This document shows positions 1-17,275 of a stretch of 39,673 bases of DNA, one piece after another (within the stretch, counting starts at the first letter, position 1; every line of letters starts with the position of its first letter). The translations under genes and the position numbers were made by a program. Source of the DNA: an uncultured Acidimicrobiales bacterium (GTDB lineage: Bacteria; Actinomycetota; Acidimicrobiia; Acidimicrobiales; UBA10347); the NCBI GenBank assembly GCA_937941245.1, contig CALDYC010000068.1, positions 1-39,673 of the forward strand. Direction: 5' to 3'. The notes beneath the pieces are model-generated. The model saw nothing but the letters and a program-made list of their open reading frames with translations. It was not told the DNA's origin and made no database searches.

Positions 1-960
1 CTCGCTGACCTGCAGGTGTTCTACATCAACATCGGCGGCGGCGAGCCAATGATCCGCAAGGACTTCTTCGACATTGTCGACCATGCGGTCGCTCGCAATG
101 TGGGCGTGAAGTTTTCGACCAACGGCTACTACATCGACCAAGCGGCTGCCGAACGGTTCGCGGCCAGCGACTTGCTCGACATTCAGATCAGCCTCGATGG
201 CTTCGATCAGGCAACCAACGACGCGGTACGCGGAGACGGCAGCTGGCTCCAAGCACGCACCGCAATGGATCATCTCGCGGCTGCAAACTTTGGTGAGTTC
301 AAGATCAGCATTGTGGCGACTCGCCACAACGTCGACCAGCTCGATGACTACAAGGCGATGGCCGACGACTACGGCGCTCAGCTTCGAGTGACCCGTCTAC
401 GTCCTTCGGGTCGCGGCGTCGACAGCTATCAGGACCTGCGGCTTACTCATCCTCAACAGCAGCAGATCTTCCGCTGGATTCTCGACAACCCCGATGTCTT
501 GACCGGCGACTCGTTCTTCCACCTCAACGCACTCGGCCAGTCGACCGGCGAGGCGTTGCCGGGCCTGAACATGTGTGGCGCTGGGCGCATCGTGTGCCTC
601 ATCGACCCAATCGGCGATGTGTACGCCTGTCCATTCGTCATCCATGACGAGTTCAACGCCGGCAACGTGCGAGATAGCGGCGGGTTCGCCCAGGTATGGC
701 GCGAGTCGTCTCTGTTCACCTCGCTTCGTGAGCCCGGAAGCGCAGGAGCTTGCGCATCGTGCGGCTCCTACGACGCGTGCGGTGGCGGATGCATGGCTGC
801 GAAGTTCTTCACCGGCATTCCGCTCGACGGACCCGACCCTGACTGTGTGTTCGGATACGCCGACGATGCAGTTGCGGCCGCCGCCGGGGCAGTTCCCAAA
901 CCTTCACAGGACCATTCACGACCTGTCCGGCTGAGCACCAAATCTGCGCCTTTGGGCTGA
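1..960 (+). CDS. mftC: Mycofactocin radical SAM maturase MftC (5' end outside window)
   Basis: MftC is a radical SAM/SPASM enzyme. It acts on the C-terminal Val-Tyr of the precursor peptide MftA (held by MftB), doing oxidative decarboxylation and then a cyclising C-C bond. The reading frame is open to the window edge, so the N-terminal CxxxCxxC cluster is missing here. What is visible: the SAM-binding GGGEP motif, the KFSTNG and QISLDG strands, and a SPASM-type cysteine set near the C-terminus (CGAGRIVC, YACPF, CASCGSYDACGGGC, then a last Cys). The ending with DHSR and a short basic tail matches MftC as I remember it from mycobacteria. It converges with mftE, 35 bp away. The start at 16 in the ORF track is an artefact of the edge. 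Identification is very secure from the C-terminal two thirds. Confidence 0.95.
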   Translation, partial: LADLQVFYINIGGGEPMIRKDFFDIVDHAVARNVGVKFSTNGYYIDQAAAERFAASDLLDIQISLDGFDQATNDAVRGDGSWLQARTAMDHLAAANFGEFKISIVATRHNVDQLDDYKAMADDYGAQLRVTRLRPSGRGVDSYQDLRLTHPQQQQIFRWILDNPDVLTGDSFFHLNALGQSTGEALPGLNMCGAGRIVCLIDPIGDVYACPFVIHDEFNAGNVRDSGGFAQVWRESSLFTSLREPGSAGACASCGSYDACGGGCMAAKFFTGIPLDGPDPDCVFGYADDAVAAAAGAVPKPSQDHSRPVRLSTKSAPLG

Positions 961-995
961 ACCCGGCGATCTGACCTGCCCAGCCAACACCACGC

Positions 996-1667
996 TCAGC
1001 CGTTGAGCTGGTCGTGAAGCGACGATGCCAGGGCCCAAAGCAGTGTTCGACCGTGCTCTGCGGTCGCGGTTCTGGGGTCGCCGAGCACCCCTGACGTCGA
1101 CACGGGCTTGATGCCGTGCTTGCGTAGGTCTGGCAAAAGTTCGACGAGCGGACGAACGTTGCCAACCACGTCGGTGGGGTCGCCGACGAGCTCCGGGGCG
1201 ATTGCGAGCATGAGCGATGTCTCGGTCAACCCAGCATGGGCATCGCCGTCTGGCACGACCGGAGCCCAGATCTCGACGGTCCGCCCCTCATCAACCAGCT
1301 GACGCTGGGCAGCTCGAATCGCCTGCACATTTCCGCCGTGCCCGTTGACCAAGACAACCCGGTCGAAGTGGTCCGCAGATCTGACGAGTTCGATCAGCAC
1401 CAGCTTCAGCACGTCCGATCCAATCGACAACGTCCCCGGGAAACCGGCATGCTCGCCGCTTGATCCATAGGCAACCGCTGGAGCTACGGCCATGGTCGAA
1501 TCTTTCGACGCAACCGCTTCGGCAACAGCAATCGCAATGCGGGTATCGGTATCGAGCGGCAAATGCGGGCCGTGCTGCTCGGTCGAGCCAACCGGCACGA
1601 GCAAGGTCATCGCATCGCCGACATCGGGCCATGCCCGGTGACCGAGCGACAGATTGAGTTCGGTCAT
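996..1667 (-). CDS. mftE: Mycofactocin peptidase MftE (creatininase fold)
   Basis: MftE is a creatininase-family metallopeptidase that cuts the modified C-terminal dipeptide (AHDP) from MftA. Visible motifs are STEQHGPHLPLDTDT near residue 30 (metal ligands E and H, then D), VNGHGGN near 110, and DAHAGLTETS near 150. All are expected in the creatininase fold. Its 223 residues fit the family. I chose the ATG at 1667 (MTELNLSLG) over the upstream start at 1712, because the latter would overlap the mftD start and adds a non-family N-terminus. The gene lies on the minus strand between mftC and mftD, both plus strand, whereas in the mycobacterial cluster mftA-F are co-directional. A TACCGT hexamer sits 7 nt before the ATG, so it may be leaderless. 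Confidence 0.93.
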   Translation of the reverse strand: MTELNLSLGHRAWPDVGDAMTLLVPVGSTEQHGPHLPLDTDTRIAIAVAEAVASKDSTMAVAPAVAYGSSGEHAGFPGTLSIGSDVLKLVLIELVRSADHFDRVVLVNGHGGNVQAIRAAQRQLVDEGRTVEIWAPVVPDGDAHAGLTETSLMLAIAPELVGDPTDVVGNVRPLVELLPDLRKHGIKPVSTSGVLGDPRTATAEHGRTLLWALASSLHDQLNG

Positions 1668-1674
1668 CTTTCGG

Positions 1675-1680
1675 ACGGTA
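1675..1680 (-). promoter_or_regulatory. Putative -10 (TACCGT) of leaderless mftE
   Basis: On the minus strand TACCGT (TANNNT pattern) ends 7 nt before the mftE ATG at 1667, the spacing expected when transcription starts on the start codon. No clear -35 is visible. Inferred from sequence only. Confidence 0.35.
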
Positions 1681-1693
1681 GCCGCATTGGGCT

Positions 1694-1699
1694 TAGGCT
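1694..1699 (+). promoter_or_regulatory. Putative -10 (TAGGCT) of leaderless mftD
   Basis: TAGGCT ends 6 nt before the GTG of mftD at 1706. No -35 consensus is visible. It lies 13 bp from the opposing mftE -10, so each promoter's -35 zone would fall on or beside the other's -10. Confidence 0.35.
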
Positions 1700-1705
1700 C
1701 TCGGG

Positions 1706-2875
1706 GTGGCAAATCCGTGGTTTGAATCCGTAGCCGTTGCGCGAGCTCGGGCGAAGAAGCGTCTTCCCCGTTCGGTGTACAGCGCCATCGTTGCTGGTGC
1801 CGAAGCAGGAGTATCGGCGTCAGAAAATATCAGCGCCTTCGATCAGCTCGGTCTTCGGCCAATAACGGCAGGGCAGACGACCGGAGCACCGCTCGACACC
1901 ACCATCATGGGGCAGGCTTCGTCGATGCCGGTCATGATTTCGCCGACTGGGGTGCAGGCCGTTCACCCTGATGGTGAAGTGGCCGTTGCCCGAGCGACCG
2001 CTGCTCGTGGGGTGCCAATGGGTCTGAGCTCGTTCGGAAGCAAACCCATCGAAGACGTGGTCGCCGCGAACCCGCAAACGTTCTTTCAGATCTATTGGGC
2101 CGACGATCGCGACTCGATGTCCGCGCGCATGGAGCGAGCCAAAGCCGCCGGTGCGGTGGGTCTGATCGTCACGCTCGACTGGTCGTTCTCTCACGGACGC
2201 GACTGGGGAAGCCCATCGATCCCCGAGAAGATCGATTTCAAGGTTGCCCTCGAACACGCTCCCGACGTACTCACTCGCCCTCGGTGGCTCTTGAGCTGGG
2301 CAAAGCAAAGGCGTCTGCCTGACCTCGGCGTGCCGAACTTCCCAACCGGCGGAGCGCCAGTACCCGGATTCTTCGAGGCATACGGCGCGTGGATGGGCAC
2401 TCCCCCGCCGACCTGGGACGACATCGCCGGACTCGCTTCGGAATGGAACGGTCCGTTCATGGTCAAGGGCATCGGCCGAGGCGACGAAGCCAAGCGCGCG
2501 GTTGACGCGGGGGCGACCGCAATCTCAGTCTCGAACCACGGCGGCAACAACATCGACAGTTCGCCAGCTCCGATCCGGGTGCTTCCAGAAGTGGTCGCCG
2601 CAGTTGGAGACCAATGTCAGGTGATGATGGACGGCGGTATCCGTCGAGGCAGCGATGTCGTCAAAGCTCTTGCGCTTGGCGCCGAAGCCGTCATGCTCGG
2701 ACGGGCCTATCTCTGGGGCCTGGCCGTCAACGGACAAGGCGGGGTCGAGAACGTGCTCGACGTGATCCGTGGCGGAATCGACGCAACCATGCGCGGTCTG
2801 GGTAAGAGCTCGCTCGATGAGCTCTCACCGGACGACGTGGTCATCCCCCACGATTTCTTCCCACCCGCTACCTGA
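1706..2875 (+). CDS. mftD: Mycofactocin FMN dehydrogenase MftD
   Basis: MftD belongs to the FMN-dependent alpha-hydroxy-acid dehydrogenase family. It oxidatively deaminates AHDP to premycofactocin, giving the redox-active alpha-keto amide. The 389 residues form a TIM barrel. The N-terminus (KKRLPRSVYSAIVAGAEAG) is typical of the MftD branch rather than lactate oxidases. FMN and catalytic motifs are visible near the C-terminus: SVSNHGGNN (catalytic His), DGGIRRGSDVVKALALGA and AVMLGR. The GTG start at 1706 gives MANPWFESV, the expected family N-terminus, and no Shine-Dalgarno is seen in front of it. It is followed after 4 bp by the SDR gene, so the two are probably cotranscribed. Confidence 0.94.
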   Translation: MANPWFESVAVARARAKKRLPRSVYSAIVAGAEAGVSASENISAFDQLGLRPITAGQTTGAPLDTTIMGQASSMPVMISPTGVQAVHPDGEVAVARATAARGVPMGLSSFGSKPIEDVVAANPQTFFQIYWADDRDSMSARMERAKAAGAVGLIVTLDWSFSHGRDWGSPSIPEKIDFKVALEHAPDVLTRPRWLLSWAKQRRLPDLGVPNFPTGGAPVPGFFEAYGAWMGTPPPTWDDIAGLASEWNGPFMVKGIGRGDEAKRAVDAGATAISVSNHGGNNIDSSPAPIRVLPEVVAAVGDQCQVMMDGGIRRGSDVVKALALGAEAVMLGRAYLWGLAVNGQGGVENVLDVIRGGIDATMRGLGKSSLDELSPDDVVIPHDFFPPAT

Positions 2876-2879
2876 CCAG

Positions 2880-3656
2880 GTGAGTACGGCGCTGGTGACC
2901 GGGGCCGCCCGCGGTATCGGCGCGGCTACAGCCCGGCGTCTGAGCGCCGACGGTCACCGGCTGGTTCTCGTCGACCGCTGCAGCGACGACCCGCGGCTCG
3001 ACTATGCCCTCGGCACCCGAGCCGAATTGTCTGCGCTGGCTGACGAGATCGGCGCAGTGGACATCGAGGGCGATGTGTCTTCGTCTGCCGTCTGTGAGCG
3101 AGCGGTCGCTGCCGCGGTTGACGTCGGAGGCAGTCTCGACATTGTTGTTGCAGGTGCTGGCGTGATGGCCGGGGGCGTCCCACTCTGGGAGCTGAGCGAC
3201 ACCGCGTTCACGGCGATGCACGAAACGAATGTCCTTGGCACGCTCGCACTCGTGCGAGCGGCGATCCCAGCCATGTTGGCCCAACCCGAACCGCGCCGCG
3301 GCCGCTTTGTCGCGATTGCGTCAGCTGTTACCTGCAAGGCAACTCCGTCGCTCGGCGGCTACGCCGCGACCAAAGCCGCGGTCACGAGCTTGGTCAGCTC
3401 ACTTGCTGCCGACCTCGCCGACACCGGGATCACCGCCAACGTCGTCTCACCGGGGTCAACCGCGACCGACCTGCTCGATTACAGCGCTCGCGTATATGGG
3501 CTGACCAACGCCGATGAGTTTGCTCAGCACCACATCAACCGGCAGCTCGTAGGACCCGACCAGCTCGCCGACGCCATCGCCTGGTTATCTTCGCCGCAGG
3601 CCGATGCGGTCACCGGCATCGTGCTTCCGGTCGATGCAGGCATGTCGGCCAAGTGA
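2880..3656 (+). CDS. Mycofactocin-coupled SDR-family oxidoreductase
   Basis: A short-chain dehydrogenase of 258 residues. It has the nucleotide-binding TGAARGIGAA at residues 6-16, the NAG-like AGAG strand, and the catalytic Ser and YAATK. Mycofactocin-dependent SDRs hold a non-exchanging NAD(H) that is recycled by mycofactocin. They carry a short insertion after the first beta-alpha unit, and here DDPRLDYALGTRAEL fits such an insertion. The ORF-track start at 2769 reads through the end of mftD in another frame. The GTG at 2880, 4 bp after the mftD stop, gives the correct Rossmann N-terminus. Direct coupling to mftD supports a role as a mycofactocin-linked alcohol dehydrogenase, but the substrate cannot be read from sequence. 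Confidence 0.85.
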   Translation: MSTALVTGAARGIGAATARRLSADGHRLVLVDRCSDDPRLDYALGTRAELSALADEIGAVDIEGDVSSSAVCERAVAAAVDVGGSLDIVVAGAGVMAGGVPLWELSDTAFTAMHETNVLGTLALVRAAIPAMLAQPEPRRGRFVAIASAVTCKATPSLGGYAATKAAVTSLVSSLAADLADTGITANVVSPGSTATDLLDYSARVYGLTNADEFAQHHINRQLVGPDQLADAIAWLSSPQADAVTGIVLPVDAGMSAK

Positions 3657-4927
3657 CCGACCGACAGAAGCGACCGCCGCTCCCCTCAAGCATCAGACTG
3701 CTGCTGTTCGCCATGGCGACAGGCAGCTTCTCGGTATCGATGCTGCTGACGGTCGTCGGACTACAGGTCTTTGCCATTACTGGCCGCGAGCTGGACCTTG
3801 GGTTGCTGGGCATCGCCGAATTTCTGCCGATTCTGCTGCTCACCCCGTTCACCGGGTCAATCGCCGACCGGTTCGACCGACGATTCGTCTACGCCGGCGG
3901 GCTGATGATCGGTATCGCCGCAAGCGTCATGCTCGCAATACATGCAACGATCGATGACCGTTCAGCTCTCCCGATCCTGGGTTTCGTTGCGATCTACGGC
4001 GTCGGGCGAGCCGTCGGCACACCGGCCGGCCGGTCGTTGCCGATTGACCTGGCCCCCGACGGAATGATCGAGCGGGTGGTCGCTTTGCGATCGCTGACCT
4101 TCCAGATCGCACTCATCTCGGGCCCACTGATCGGAGCGCTCGCCAACCGAACATCTCTGGTCTTGCCGTTTCTAATCGTGATCGCTGGCCAAGCGGTAAC
4201 CGTCGTCTCGCTCAGCTTCGTTCCCTCGCCCGGGACCGAGCGACTCACCACACGACCAGGCCCCCTGCAGGCAGTGCGCGACGCCCGCAACGGTCTGCGG
4301 TTCATTCGGGAAACACCGGTCGTGTTCGGCGCGATCTCTCTTGACCTGTTCGCGGTGTTGTTCGGCGGGGCAGTCGCGCTGCTTCCCGCCATTGTCGAAA
4401 AGCGGCTCGGCTTCGAAGACGTCGACCTGGGCGTTGGCATATTGCGCGCGTCGATTGCTGCCGCAGCGGCAGTGACCGCGCTTCTGCTCTCGATTCGCCC
4501 GCTCACTCGGCGTGTCGGTCACGGACTATTCACCGTCGTTGCCGTGTTTGGTCTCGCGACCATTGCGCTCGGCGTCGTCCGAAGCTTTGCTCTGGCGATC
4601 GTCGCGGTAGCAGTGCTAAGCGCTGCGGATCAGGTGAGTGTGTTTATCCGCTCGAGTTTGGTTCCGCTTGCCACTCCCGAAGCCATGCGCGGCCGAGTGA
4701 TGGCTGTAGAGAACGTCTTCATCGGCGGTTCGAACGAGCTCGGTGCATTCGAATCAGGTGCGACTGCGGCGTTGTTCGGCCTCGGCCCGGCCGTGGTCAT
4801 TGGTGGCCTCGGCACGCTGGTGGTTGTCGTGCTCGGCAGTCTGCGCTTCCCGGAATTGTTGCGGGTTGACCGTTTCAGCGACGTTCGACCAGCGCAGGTG
4901 TCTGGCTCAGGTGACCAGGTCCCGTAG
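3653..4927 (+). CDS. MFS exporter (EntS-like)
   Basis: A 424-residue major facilitator superfamily protein with about 12 hydrophobic segments. The loop 2-3 signature is seen as GSIADRFDRRFV near residue 70. The N-terminal half resembles the MFS_3/enterobactin-exporter branch. It starts GTG in a 4-bp overlap with the SDR stop, so it is translationally coupled to the mycofactocin-linked genes. It could export or import a substrate or product of the mycofactocin pathway, but that is inference from position. Its last 21 bp overlap the end of the convergent membrane gene. Confidence 0.82.
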   Translation: MTDRQKRPPLPSSIRLLLFAMATGSFSVSMLLTVVGLQVFAITGRELDLGLLGIAEFLPILLLTPFTGSIADRFDRRFVYAGGLMIGIAASVMLAIHATIDDRSALPILGFVAIYGVGRAVGTPAGRSLPIDLAPDGMIERVVALRSLTFQIALISGPLIGALANRTSLVLPFLIVIAGQAVTVVSLSFVPSPGTERLTTRPGPLQAVRDARNGLRFIRETPVVFGAISLDLFAVLFGGAVALLPAIVEKRLGFEDVDLGVGILRASIAAAAAVTALLLSIRPLTRRVGHGLFTVVAVFGLATIALGVVRSFALAIVAVAVLSAADQVSVFIRSSLVPLATPEAMRGRVMAVENVFIGGSNELGAFESGATAALFGLGPAVVIGGLGTLVVVVLGSLRFPELLRVDRFSDVRPAQVSGSGDQVP

Positions 4928-5303: not shown

Positions 5304-7058
5304 CTACCAGTATTCCTCGAAGTGGATGTTGCCGGGCCTGCCGCGTCGATCGAGCGTGAACCCACGGTCGACAAGTAGCTCGGTGACTCCGACGACCTCG
5401 GGCCACTGGTCCTCATCCCCGTCACTTTCAGGAAGCCCGATCATCGCCGGATTCCCGCACAAGAAGACATCAGTGTGTGCCGGGTCGAGCGGGACCCCGA
5501 ATTGTTCGTTGAACGCGTCGTTTCGAATGACATCCTGCAGATACGTCTTCGGGACGTCATCCTCACGAGTCGGCAGTGGCATGTAGTGATAGTGGTCGTA
5601 CCGCTTCTCGAGTTCTCGGTGCTCGGCCAGGTACCCGAGATCGCTCCATTGACGCACAGTTACGGCTGAGATGATCGGACCGTGGTGGCCCTTGCGCAGG
5701 AGCTGGTTGACCATGGCGTTGTGTGGCGCTTCGCCGGTTCCGGTCGACAAGAAGATGCACGTCCGGCCAGGATCGACGACCGGCGCCAAGGTGTAACGAC
5801 CAGCCACCTTTGACCCAAGGAAGATTCGGTCACCTGGGCGTTTCAACGCAAGGCGTGGCGTGAGCCCCGGCACATTGTCCTCGCTCGGGTTGACGAGGAC
5901 GATGTAGAACTCAAGTTCATCGGTGTCGGTATCGACTGTCAGGTAACCACTCGTATCGAGGATCGAGTTCGAGATCGAATACGACCGCCGAACCATCTTG
6001 AGCCACTTGTCGTCGAGGTCGACGTCGATGGCGTCGTCGATGCGCGACTCCCAGTAGCCCAACCCAAGCGTGGCGTACTGGCCAGGAAGATGCGACGTAT
6101 CACCATGATCCGGCTTCACGTTCAACCGCCACAGGTCGGTGTGCGTTGGCTCGAACTTCGTGATTGTTGCGTTGTAATAGTGCTCAGCAAGTTCATCGGC
6201 CAGTGTCGTATCGCGGCTCCAAGACCGAACGCCAGCTGGTTCGACCGTGCGGTCAGGAAATCGAGCCTCGGCGATTCGCGGCCACAGGTCGGGCCCAAAT
6301 GCGCCGTGCATATCGATCGTCTCGGCCTTACCCGAAAACAACAGGACCGAGTCCGATGCTCGGGCTCGTTCGGTCACTCCGAGTTCATCAATGCGAGCTG
6401 GCGCTCGACTGGTCGCAAACACCACATGGTCGAACTCGAGATCGGGTGTGTGGCGATCACTGAAGTACGCGATCGGGTAGCCGTTGCGCTCCCCGATCTG
6501 CGACGGACTGGAGCGGTACAGGACAGTGGCCCGTCGTTCGCGTTCCAGCGTTGCCAGAATGCGACCTGCTACGGGCGACAAACGGGCGGGGTCCATGCCG
6601 TCGGCGGCTAGCACCACACCGGCACCTCGCTTGGCGAGTTCCATGGTTAGCTCGACTGCGTGATCGCTCACGCCGATCACCATCACATCGGCGTCGATCG
6701 CAATCGCTGGTGGTAGGTCAACCGACACGCGGTCACCGGGCACGACCGGAATCGGGGGCTCGCTCTCGGGTTCAACTTCGCGTTCCGCAATCACACACGC
6801 CGTAGCGACACGGGTCCGGCGGTCGGTCACAATCGTGACCAACCCGGTTTCTGGGTCAACGTCGACGCTCGAGACGATTTCGCCGAACGTCACCGACAAC
6901 TCGTTCTCACTGATGACGTCAGGCATGAGCACGGTCTGACCGCGTTCGATGAGGTGGACACGTTCGACACCAGCGCGGCGCGCCGCCTCGGCGACCGACA
7001 GTCCGCCAGCAGTCGCGCCGATCACGATCAGGTCATGTGAAGTGGTATCGGTGGCCAT
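5304..7058 (-). CDS. Fusion: disulfide-reductase-like FAD domain + ferredoxin-NADP reductase
   Basis: A 584-residue two-module flavoprotein. Residues 8-290 resemble pyridine nucleotide-disulfide oxidoreductases, with IVIGATAGGLSVAEAARRAG (first dinucleotide fold), DVMVIGVSDHAVE (second fold, GxGxxG lost) and VVFATSRAP in place of ATGxxPN. No CxxxxC redox pair is visible. Residues 295-584 are a plant/bacterial-type ferredoxin-NADP reductase: RRSYSISNS at about 357-365 (FAD, RxYS), STGTGEAPHNAM at about 438-449 (NADP), FLCGNPAMI at about 532-540, and a C-terminal EYW like the aromatic end of E. coli Fpr. The C-terminal half is thus probably active, delivering NADPH electrons to ferredoxins or flavodoxins. 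The ATG at 7058 gives a clean Rossmann start; the track start at 7118 adds 20 atypical residues. The FNR fold is secure, the role of the N-terminal half is unknown. Confidence 0.85.
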   Translation of the reverse strand: MATDTTSHDLIVIGATAGGLSVAEAARRAGVERVHLIERGQTVLMPDVISENELSVTFGEIVSSVDVDPETGLVTIVTDRRTRVATACVIAEREVEPESEPPIPVVPGDRVSVDLPPAIAIDADVMVIGVSDHAVELTMELAKRGAGVVLAADGMDPARLSPVAGRILATLERERRATVLYRSSPSQIGERNGYPIAYFSDRHTPDLEFDHVVFATSRAPARIDELGVTERARASDSVLLFSGKAETIDMHGAFGPDLWPRIAEARFPDRTVEPAGVRSWSRDTTLADELAEHYYNATITKFEPTHTDLWRLNVKPDHGDTSHLPGQYATLGLGYWESRIDDAIDVDLDDKWLKMVRRSYSISNSILDTSGYLTVDTDTDELEFYIVLVNPSEDNVPGLTPRLALKRPGDRIFLGSKVAGRYTLAPVVDPGRTCIFLSTGTGEAPHNAMVNQLLRKGHHGPIISAVTVRQWSDLGYLAEHRELEKRYDHYHYMPLPTREDDVPKTYLQDVIRNDAFNEQFGVPLDPAHTDVFLCGNPAMIGLPESDGDEDQWPEVVGVTELLVDRGFTLDRRGRPGNIHFEEYW

Positions 7059-7151
7059 GGTCCATTCTGGAGGCACCGACCGCTTCACTCGCAGAGCCAG
7101 CGAACCAAAGATTGTCACTTGTTCTGAATCAGCTGAAGAGGTGACGTCGGG

Positions 7152-14890: not shown

Positions 14891-17275
14891 TCAACGAATC
14901 GACACCACGTCGCTATCCGAGAGCGACGTGCGGATATCGACATCGGCGAGCGGAACGACGTCTGGACAGAATCGCAACGAGGCCTGTTCAAGCGCGGCCT
15001 TGACCTCGACCATCACAGCCGAAGCGTCGGTGTCATCGCATTCAACGACAACCGAGTCGTGCACGGTCTGTACCGGCACGGCATTGCCGAACTGCGCGAG
15101 CCGCTGCCGTAGACCTGCATACGCAACCAGCATGATGTCGGCGACGCCTCCTTGAATTGGCGCGTTGCGCCACGCGTTAACCATCGCCCCAATTCGTTCC
15201 CGCGCAGCGCGCGCAAGGAACGGTTCTACGACATCGGCGCCGACCCTTTGGATCGCCGACTCGACGAACAGCTGGCGTTGATCACGGTCGACAAGAACCC
15301 GTTCAATGTCACGGCGCTCGAGCGGAGCGGTCCGAGACGTCAGGCGGATCTCGTGGTCGGCCTCGAACGCCGCTCGAGCGCGAACAATCGAAGCCTCGGG
15401 TGACGCAATCAGCGCTTCGATCGCAGCCAGAAGCACCCGATCGATATGCACGTTGAACTGCTGACGTCGACCGGCAACGGTGCGGCTCGCGAACACGAAC
15501 GGGCTGCCATCGCTGTGCAGCGCCACCGCCGCGTGGTGCCCGAGGATCCAACGAATCGTGGCCGCATCGCGTCCATCGATCGCCGGATCGCTGACGGCGT
15601 CAACCACTTCGTCCGCAGTTGGCCATCGTCGCTGCTCCGACCGGAACTGGCGACGAAATGCGTGCACCGAACCGAACCCGCGAGAGAGCCGCAACGTCTG
15701 CTTCCAGTCGATCTCCGACGATCGCCGTTGGGTGGCTCGAATTTCGGCGATCCGCTCATTGGCCCATTCGTCGGTTCCCGGGTAGGTCGCCCGGTACTGA
15801 CGCAACAGGTCCCGACCCTCGTTCAGACTCGTCGGCGAGCCGTTAGCGGTCAGAGACCGCGCCAGCGCCGCCGCGCCTGTGCCATAGGCAATGCCGAAGT
15901 TGAGTGCCTTAGCGATCTGACGCAGCTCAGCCAGTCTCGCCGGGTCCTCAGATACAAGCGCCGCCGGGTCAAACCGGAACATCGTCGCTGCGGTCGTCGT
16001 GTGCACGTCATCACCGCGTGCGAAGGCGGCGCGAAGGGCCGCGTCGTCGGACACCTGGGCGAGGAAGCGCAGCTCGGCCTGGCTGAGGTCCGCGTGCACG
16101 AACACCCGCTTAGCGTCTGCGGGCCGAACGAAGGGCTTCATCAGTGGTGTGAAATTCTGTGCGTTCGGATTGCGACTTGCTAGCCGGCCAGTATTGGTGC
16201 CGACGACCTGCAGATACTGCGGATGCAAACGGCCGTCATCACCGATGTGATCGCGAATCGACTCGCCATACGTCGACAAGATCTTGGCTGCATTTCGAAA
16301 CGCCAGCAGCGCGGCACTCAGCTCACCGCCGATCTCTCGCAACACCGACGCCGTCACCGAATCGCCGTCGCGCAACAGCCTGGGTGTGCGGTGACGCGAC
16401 GCTGTCCATGCTCGTACCTGGTCAGGCGACCACGTGTTCAACGCGTGTCGAACCTGCTGGTCAGACGCCGGGTTCCAGGTCGGCTCTACGACGTCATCGA
16501 ACAGTGTCCCCTGACCTCCGCCGGTTAGAGCTGCCAACTCAGACAGCGACACCCGGTGCCGGGCCGCGACTGCTGCGAGCTCACCTTCCCACCCTGCCCA
16601 GTCAAAGGGAAGCCCCGATCGTTCCATCTGATCGAGAAATGGGCGAGCCGCATTCTCGATCTCGCAGATCTCATCGAGTCCAGCCTGGGCCACCACAGCC
16701 CGAACCGCATCGCCGACCCACAGTGTCTCGACCGCGTCCGCAGCTGCGTAAGCGATTTGGTCAGATGTCAGGTCATCGTCTCGGGTATAGGACAGCTGGA
16801 CGGTGCCCTTGCCGTCAGCCACCAGCCCGAGGTAGTGCTCAGTCGCCCAAGCCAGGCCATGAAACCAGGTGAACCCGCTTTGCCCTTGATGCACCAGCGC
16901 GTCGGCAAGCTGCACGTCGAACCACACCAAATCAGACGTTGTGTCAGCTGTCGACCACACCGCAGCATCGAGTACCCGAGCATCGAACGATGCGTTCCAC
17001 GCGTCGGCAGTGACACCGGCAAGGACTGGTGCGAGCAGAACCGGGTCAACGTCGCGCGCGTCGACGACAAAGGCACGCTCGCTCTGATCCCGTGCGCGGG
17101 TAGCTACCGACATCACTCGAAGCTCACCCGCCCCGGGCGGGCCAATCGGCACCTCGGTGTCGATCGCAACCCGCTCAGCGGCCGCCAATGCCTGAGCCAG
17201 ATCAGCGATCTGATCAGAAGTGTTGATGAAGGTGACCGGTACCGATGCTGGATCCGGCGGCTGCATCTCAGCCAT
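14891..17275 (-). CDS. Bifunctional 3'-5' exonuclease / family A DNA polymerase
   Basis: 794 residues, PolA-like but without the 5' nuclease domain. The exonuclease is intact: ExoI DTE at 39-41, ExoII NASFD at 94-98, ExoIII YAAAD at 176-180. Polymerase motif A is DLSQAELR (Asp396), the O-helix is RQIAKALNFGIAYG (Arg452, Lys456, Phe460, Tyr464), and motif C is TVHDS (Asp740). In motif C the usual Glu after Asp is Ser. Residues about 545-700, between the O-helix and the NAPIQGGVAD segment, are much longer than in E. coli Pol I. Such proteins exist in many Actinobacteria beside a normal PolA and are presumed to serve repair or damage tolerance. It converges with the nitroreductase gene. Confidence 0.93.
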   Translation of the reverse strand: MAEMQPPDPASVPVTFINTSDQIADLAQALAAAERVAIDTEVPIGPPGAGELRVMSVATRARDQSERAFVVDARDVDPVLLAPVLAGVTADAWNASFDARVLDAAVWSTADTTSDLVWFDVQLADALVHQGQSGFTWFHGLAWATEHYLGLVADGKGTVQLSYTRDDDLTSDQIAYAAADAVETLWVGDAVRAVVAQAGLDEICEIENAARPFLDQMERSGLPFDWAGWEGELAAVAARHRVSLSELAALTGGGQGTLFDDVVEPTWNPASDQQVRHALNTWSPDQVRAWTASRHRTPRLLRDGDSVTASVLREIGGELSAALLAFRNAAKILSTYGESIRDHIGDDGRLHPQYLQVVGTNTGRLASRNPNAQNFTPLMKPFVRPADAKRVFVHADLSQAELRFLAQVSDDAALRAAFARGDDVHTTTAATMFRFDPAALVSEDPARLAELRQIAKALNFGIAYGTGAAALARSLTANGSPTSLNEGRDLLRQYRATYPGTDEWANERIAEIRATQRRSSEIDWKQTLRLSRGFGSVHAFRRQFRSEQRRWPTADEVVDAVSDPAIDGRDAATIRWILGHHAAVALHSDGSPFVFASRTVAGRRQQFNVHIDRVLLAAIEALIASPEASIVRARAAFEADHEIRLTSRTAPLERRDIERVLVDRDQRQLFVESAIQRVGADVVEPFLARAARERIGAMVNAWRNAPIQGGVADIMLVAYAGLRQRLAQFGNAVPVQTVHDSVVVECDDTDASAVMVEVKAALEQASLRFCPDVVPLADVDIRTSLSDSDVVSIR

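Follow-up and report, generated by a model that had tools for sequence, protein, structure and literature searches.

In Mycobacterium, the mycofactocin (mft) biosynthetic genes form one operon controlled by MftR (PMC8728441), arranged as mftR / mftABCDEF (rv0691c / rv0691a-rv0696 in M. tuberculosis). In the pathway MftE releases the cyclised core, which MftD oxidises directly afterwards (PMC8728441). Two kinds of described promoter are also relevant to the locus reported here. In M. tuberculosis, leaderless transcription is marked by a TANNNT hexamer just before the start codon, divergent promoters often lie in close juxtaposition, and both genes of one leaderless divergent pair, prpD (Rv1130)/Rv1129c, are induced together (PMC3898074). 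The bidirectional promoters of Warman and colleagues share one -10 element, with starts most often 18 bp, and also 10 or 23 bp, apart; in Escherichia coli, five of the five tested showed no competition at basal activity, and competition appears only on strong activation of one direction (PMC12825309). Our literature search for mycofactocin papers mentioning Acidimicrobiia found none.

We have analysed an mft locus from an uncultured Acidimicrobiales bacterium (UBA10347) in which mftE is inverted. The window is the whole of contig C68 (CALDYC010000068.1; 39,673 bp), and the source genome is a MAG that is 71.5% complete (2.68 Mb, 158 contigs). The features of the locus are:

1..960, plus strand: mftC, radical SAM maturase, 5' part missing at the contig edge (TIGR03962, 472 bits, cut-off 265, profile 54-338)
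961..995, no strand: gap of 35 bp separating the stop codons of the convergent mftC and mftE
996..1667, minus strand: mftE, mycofactocin peptidase of the creatininase family, ATG at 1667 (TIGR03964, 279 bits, cut-off 172; start by genus conservation)
1675..1680, minus strand: predicted leaderless -10 of mftE, TACCGT, 7 nt before the ATG (6/6 genus members have a TANNNT ending 6-7 nt from the start; genome-wide enrichment)
1681..1693, no strand: spacer of 13 bp separating the two -10 hexamers (42-68 bp in relatives)
1694..1699, plus strand: predicted leaderless -10 of mftD, TAGGCT, 6 nt before the GTG (hexamer, distance and GTG identical in 6/6 genus members)
1706..2875, plus strand: mftD, FMN-dependent pre-mycofactocin synthase, start GTG (TIGR03966, 626 bits, cut-off 471)
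2880..3656, plus strand: mycofactocin-coupled SDR oxidoreductase (TIGR04504, 291 bits, cut-off 250)
3653..4927, plus strand: MFS transporter (TIGR00900 match under the curated cut-off; linked to mftD in three relatives)

Mycofactocin genes of the genome

The contig opens inside mftC, of which 319 aa of product are left, and MftC, MftE and MftD are adjacent and each score above the NCBIfam curated cut-off, which identifies a mycofactocin biosynthetic cluster. Of the genes listed, only mftE is on the minus strand, convergent with mftC and divergent from mftD, as the initial annotation had read it. The same annotation took MftD for a dehydrogenase, but MftD is pre-mycofactocin synthase, an FMN enzyme, and does not belong to the mycofactocin-dependent dehydrogenases. 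Only 4 bp separate mftD from the SDR gene, and the latter shares 4 nt with the MFS gene, so these three genes probably form one transcript. Two other proteins are encoded further along the window, one of 604 aa with a pyridine nucleotide-disulphide oxidoreductase-type domain and a ferredoxin reductase-type NAD-binding domain (5304-7118), and a 794-aa family A DNA polymerase with a 3'-5' exonuclease domain match (14891-17275).

MftA, MftB and MftF are encoded on another contig of the same genome (C100), where mftB (85.6 bits) and mftF (335.7 bits) run in opposite directions and a complete MftA ending IDGMCGVY sits between them. Since relatives join both blocks in the order mftF(-) mftA(+) mftB(+) mftC(+) ... 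mftE(-) mftD(+), the window very probably carries the remainder of the C100 cluster, a linkage suggested by synteny. The biosynthetic genes are those of Mycobacterium, and MftE and MftD match the same equivalog models; the differences are the inversion of mftE, the divergence of mftF from mftA and mftB on a separate contig, and a predicted leaderless promoter in front of each of mftD and mftE. The cluster is thus not a single co-directional operon of the mycobacterial type, given the inversion of mftE and the opposition of mftF to mftB.

Geometry and promoters of the mftE/mftD gap

The initial annotation had bounded mftE at 1712, which is a mechanical TTG start overlapping mftD; in every genus relative the mftE start codon lies 6-7 nt past the hexamer, and this conservation places the start at ATG 1667. 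From that ATG the distance to the mftD start is 38 bp, and TACCGT and TAGGCT stand 13 bp apart, 7 and 6 nt before their respective starts, in agreement with the earlier measurements. If each start codon is taken as the transcript start, the predicted starts are 39 bp apart and each -10 falls in the -35 region of the other promoter (at -31 to -26 and -32 to -27), so that by geometry the overlapping footprints of the earlier proposal also stand.

To place these hexamers, we surveyed 847 kb of the bacterium's own genome, covering 730 genes found by simple ORF calling, a start set that includes errors. In 7.0, 3.2 and 2.6% of these genes, a TANNNT ends 6, 7 or 8 nt, respectively, ahead of the first ATG/GTG, compared with mostly 0-0.5% at other distances; a smaller gene sample gave the same peak, with ∼0.1% before internal ATG/GTG codons. 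No -35 consensus was visible in 131 leaderless-like promoters of the genome, among which both mft hexamers score in the normal range. No -35 element was found for mftE or mftD (the best candidate has 3/6 matches), and no Shine-Dalgarno-like motif precedes mftD. Both genes thus have the form of leaderless TANNNT promoters, with 6-8 nt to the start, no -35 consensus and no need of a Shine-Dalgarno sequence, and the two hexamers are credible leaderless -10 elements from which start sites can be predicted. Tight pairs of this kind occur elsewhere in the genome: among 133 divergent pairs sampled, 11 are doubly leaderless, two of them spaced more tightly than mftE/mftD (hexamer gaps of -7, -2, 13 [mftE/mftD], 24, 34, 45 bp and upwards).

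A close likeness is to prpD/Rv1129c, which also has TANNNT -10 elements, no -35 consensus, start codons at the transcript 5' end and close divergent starts (PMC3898074). There, however, the starts have been mapped and expression of both genes rises in starvation, whereas here the starts are predicted and both genes are biosynthetic. As at the bidirectional promoters of Warman and colleagues, two polymerases could not bind at once and competition would be possible (PMC12825309). Unlike those promoters, the mftE and mftD hexamers are separate, with 13 bp between them, rather than a shared -10, and the predicted starts are further apart.

Two other divergent pairs of the genome have predicted leaderless -10 elements in close contact. 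On contig C92 (L248:12392-12418, CACGCTAGCCT), an enoyl-reductase-like SDR gene and an MshC-like class I synthetase (ligase) gene have overlapping -10 elements, an arrangement kept in all four genus members checked (L248, L260, L261 and L262). We see that pair as a stronger candidate than mftE/mftD for a true bidirectional leaderless promoter, and it offers a model of a conserved interlock within the genus; the mftE/mftD interlock is not conserved in the same way. On contig C86 (L246:6696-6716), the predicted -10 elements of an MscS-like channel gene and of a gene for a 410-aa protein without Pfam match overlap or cross.

Conservation within the genus

In all six genus genomes mftD is preceded by exactly TAGGCT, 6 nt and GTG, and mftE by a TANNNT hexamer (TACCGT, TAGCGT, TAGCGT, TAACGT, TACGAT and TAACCT) and 6 or 7 nt. 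For both genes the exact distance from hexamer to start is thus preserved across six species against a background of changing sequence, and we regard this as the strongest evidence that both hexamers are functional. The order mftC(+) mftE(-) mftD(+) recurs in three other genus assemblies, two of which carry inserted genes between mftC and mftE: a TauD-like dioxygenase in both (L149:8673-9473 and L151:5381-7992), together with an MttB-like trimethylamine methyltransferase homologue in L151. In G397, mftE opposes mftC and mftD is on another contig. Both G397 and G399 have mftE and mftD on different contigs, which shows only that the immediate upstream neighbours are other genes and not that the distance is large, yet both genes retain their own promoters. 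In these two genomes (loci L150 and L143), mftE seems to follow a same-strand gene whose C-terminus is, by eye, cytochrome P450-like, instead of facing mftD.

The spacing between the two promoters varies. Among the four genus members with linked mftE and mftD, only this species has the 13-bp interlock, and the hexamer gaps of the other three are 42, 52 and 68 bp; the intergenic gap is 38 bp here, compared to 66, 77 and 93 bp in the relatives. Because the MftD tree, ((window,G398),(G396,G395)) with genus support 100/99, pairs the window with G398, whose hexamer gap is 68 bp, and places the other two together, the simplest reading would be a contraction on the branch of this species rather than expansions elsewhere, on a tree of few branches and four linked members.

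MftE itself is far more divergent, only 51-56% identical between this genome and the genus (L143, L149, L150, L151 and L152) compared with 80-87% for MftC and MftD. In the MftE tree the genus does not come out as a single group, although the test does not reject one origin (p-AU 0.39). We considered replacement of mftE by horizontal transfer and set it aside on that result; fast evolution suffices, because MftE diverges strongly between other close pairs also (70% identity where MftD is at 95%).

Gene order across the Acidimicrobiia

Outside the genus, linked mftD and mftE run in the same direction in 14 sampled genomes and divergently in four, which represent four families (f2, f10, f31 and f37) and have 112, 119, 219 and 703 bp between tblastn match ends. 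The divergent order thus recurs in the class. The comparison of mft gene order proposed in the initial annotation accordingly finds the inversion in three further genus assemblies and divergent mftE/mftD in four additional families. In many relatives mftE carries a leaderless -10 even where it is co-directional behind mftD. The one-direction order that served as the baseline for the earlier reading holds for the mycobacterial operon, but it is a poor baseline within the Acidimicrobiia, where mft order is fluid.

Interpretation of the interlocked promoters

We think it likely that mftE and mftD-SDR-MFS are two independent leaderless units, each with a TANNNT -10 element ∼6-7 nt before the start and no required -35. 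In this genus an mftE cassette with its own promoter lies in inverted orientation between mftC and mftD, and in this species the intergenic DNA would have contracted from something like 66-93 bp to 38 bp. This would have brought the -10 elements to 13 bp apart, each where the -35 of the other promoter would be, and they could approach so closely without loss because the promoter class shows no -35 requirement. On one DNA molecule, RNA polymerase could then occupy only one of the two promoters at a time, with mild mutual interference expected, and mftE and mftD would be made together, feeding consecutive mycofactocin steps. Neither promoter appears to depend on the other, because only this species has the interlock and each promoter is retained in genomes where mftE and mftD lie on different contigs. 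The interlock gives the impression of a chance result of compact gene order, not of a switch for turn-taking.

The initial annotation had proposed that the two genes are transcribed in alternation, and the data above leave this unsupported. An interlock selected as a device, in which mftE and mftD alternate, keep a fixed ratio or show less noise in that ratio owing to steric exclusion, would agree with the geometry, which sets each -10 within the footprint of the other polymerase, and with the finding that competition at E. coli bidirectional promoters can constrain output and cut noise if one of the two directions is strongly active (PMC12825309). We nonetheless judge it unlikely. The interlock is missing from the three sister species that share the divergent order (42-68 bp between hexamers), and the promoters outlast separation of the genes. 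Because MftE and MftD act consecutively, it is hard to see what would be gained if their transcripts took turns. Alternation is further weakened because steric exclusion spans one initiation event only, the E. coli promoters tested do not compete at basal activity, and the divergent leaderless genes prpD and Rv1129c of M. tuberculosis are co-induced (PMC3898074). The effect of mutual exclusion at mftE/mftD would depend on promoter strength. A narrower form, in which the contracted region provides fixed-ratio or noise-limiting control of MftE and MftD in this one species, selected to match the consecutive steps, seems to us quite unlikely.

Two further explanations would remove the interlock or the inversion altogether. 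The mft promoters are predicted from sequence only, so the hexamers could be chance matches, with transcription starting further upstream inside the opposite gene and giving a normal leader; this is very unlikely given the exact spacing preserved for both genes amid changing surroundings in six species, the genome-wide TANNNT peak at the same distance and the lack of a Shine-Dalgarno-like motif before mftD. Misassembly or a MAG chimera might be suspected in an incomplete MAG whose contig begins inside mftC, and the initial annotation had itself named an inversion unique to a misassembly as grounds for abandoning its reading. The same order in the three other genus assemblies, and the opposition of mftE to mftC in G397, exclude such a unique artefact, and we regard this origin of the inversion as scarcely credible. 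We thus retain the reading of two independent leaderless units.

Implications

The mycofactocin cluster is not a fixed operon, and its genes have been freely rearranged in the Acidimicrobiia; the mftE/mftD locus is a clean example of a modular mft cluster with predicted leaderless promoters. Since mftE and mftD appear to have their own leaderless promoters in this genus, operon regulation by MftR should not be carried over from mycobacteria. The hexamer gaps of 13, 42, 52 and 68 bp form a natural spacing series of the same two promoters, which may serve as a test bed for polymerase interference at -35-independent leaderless promoters.
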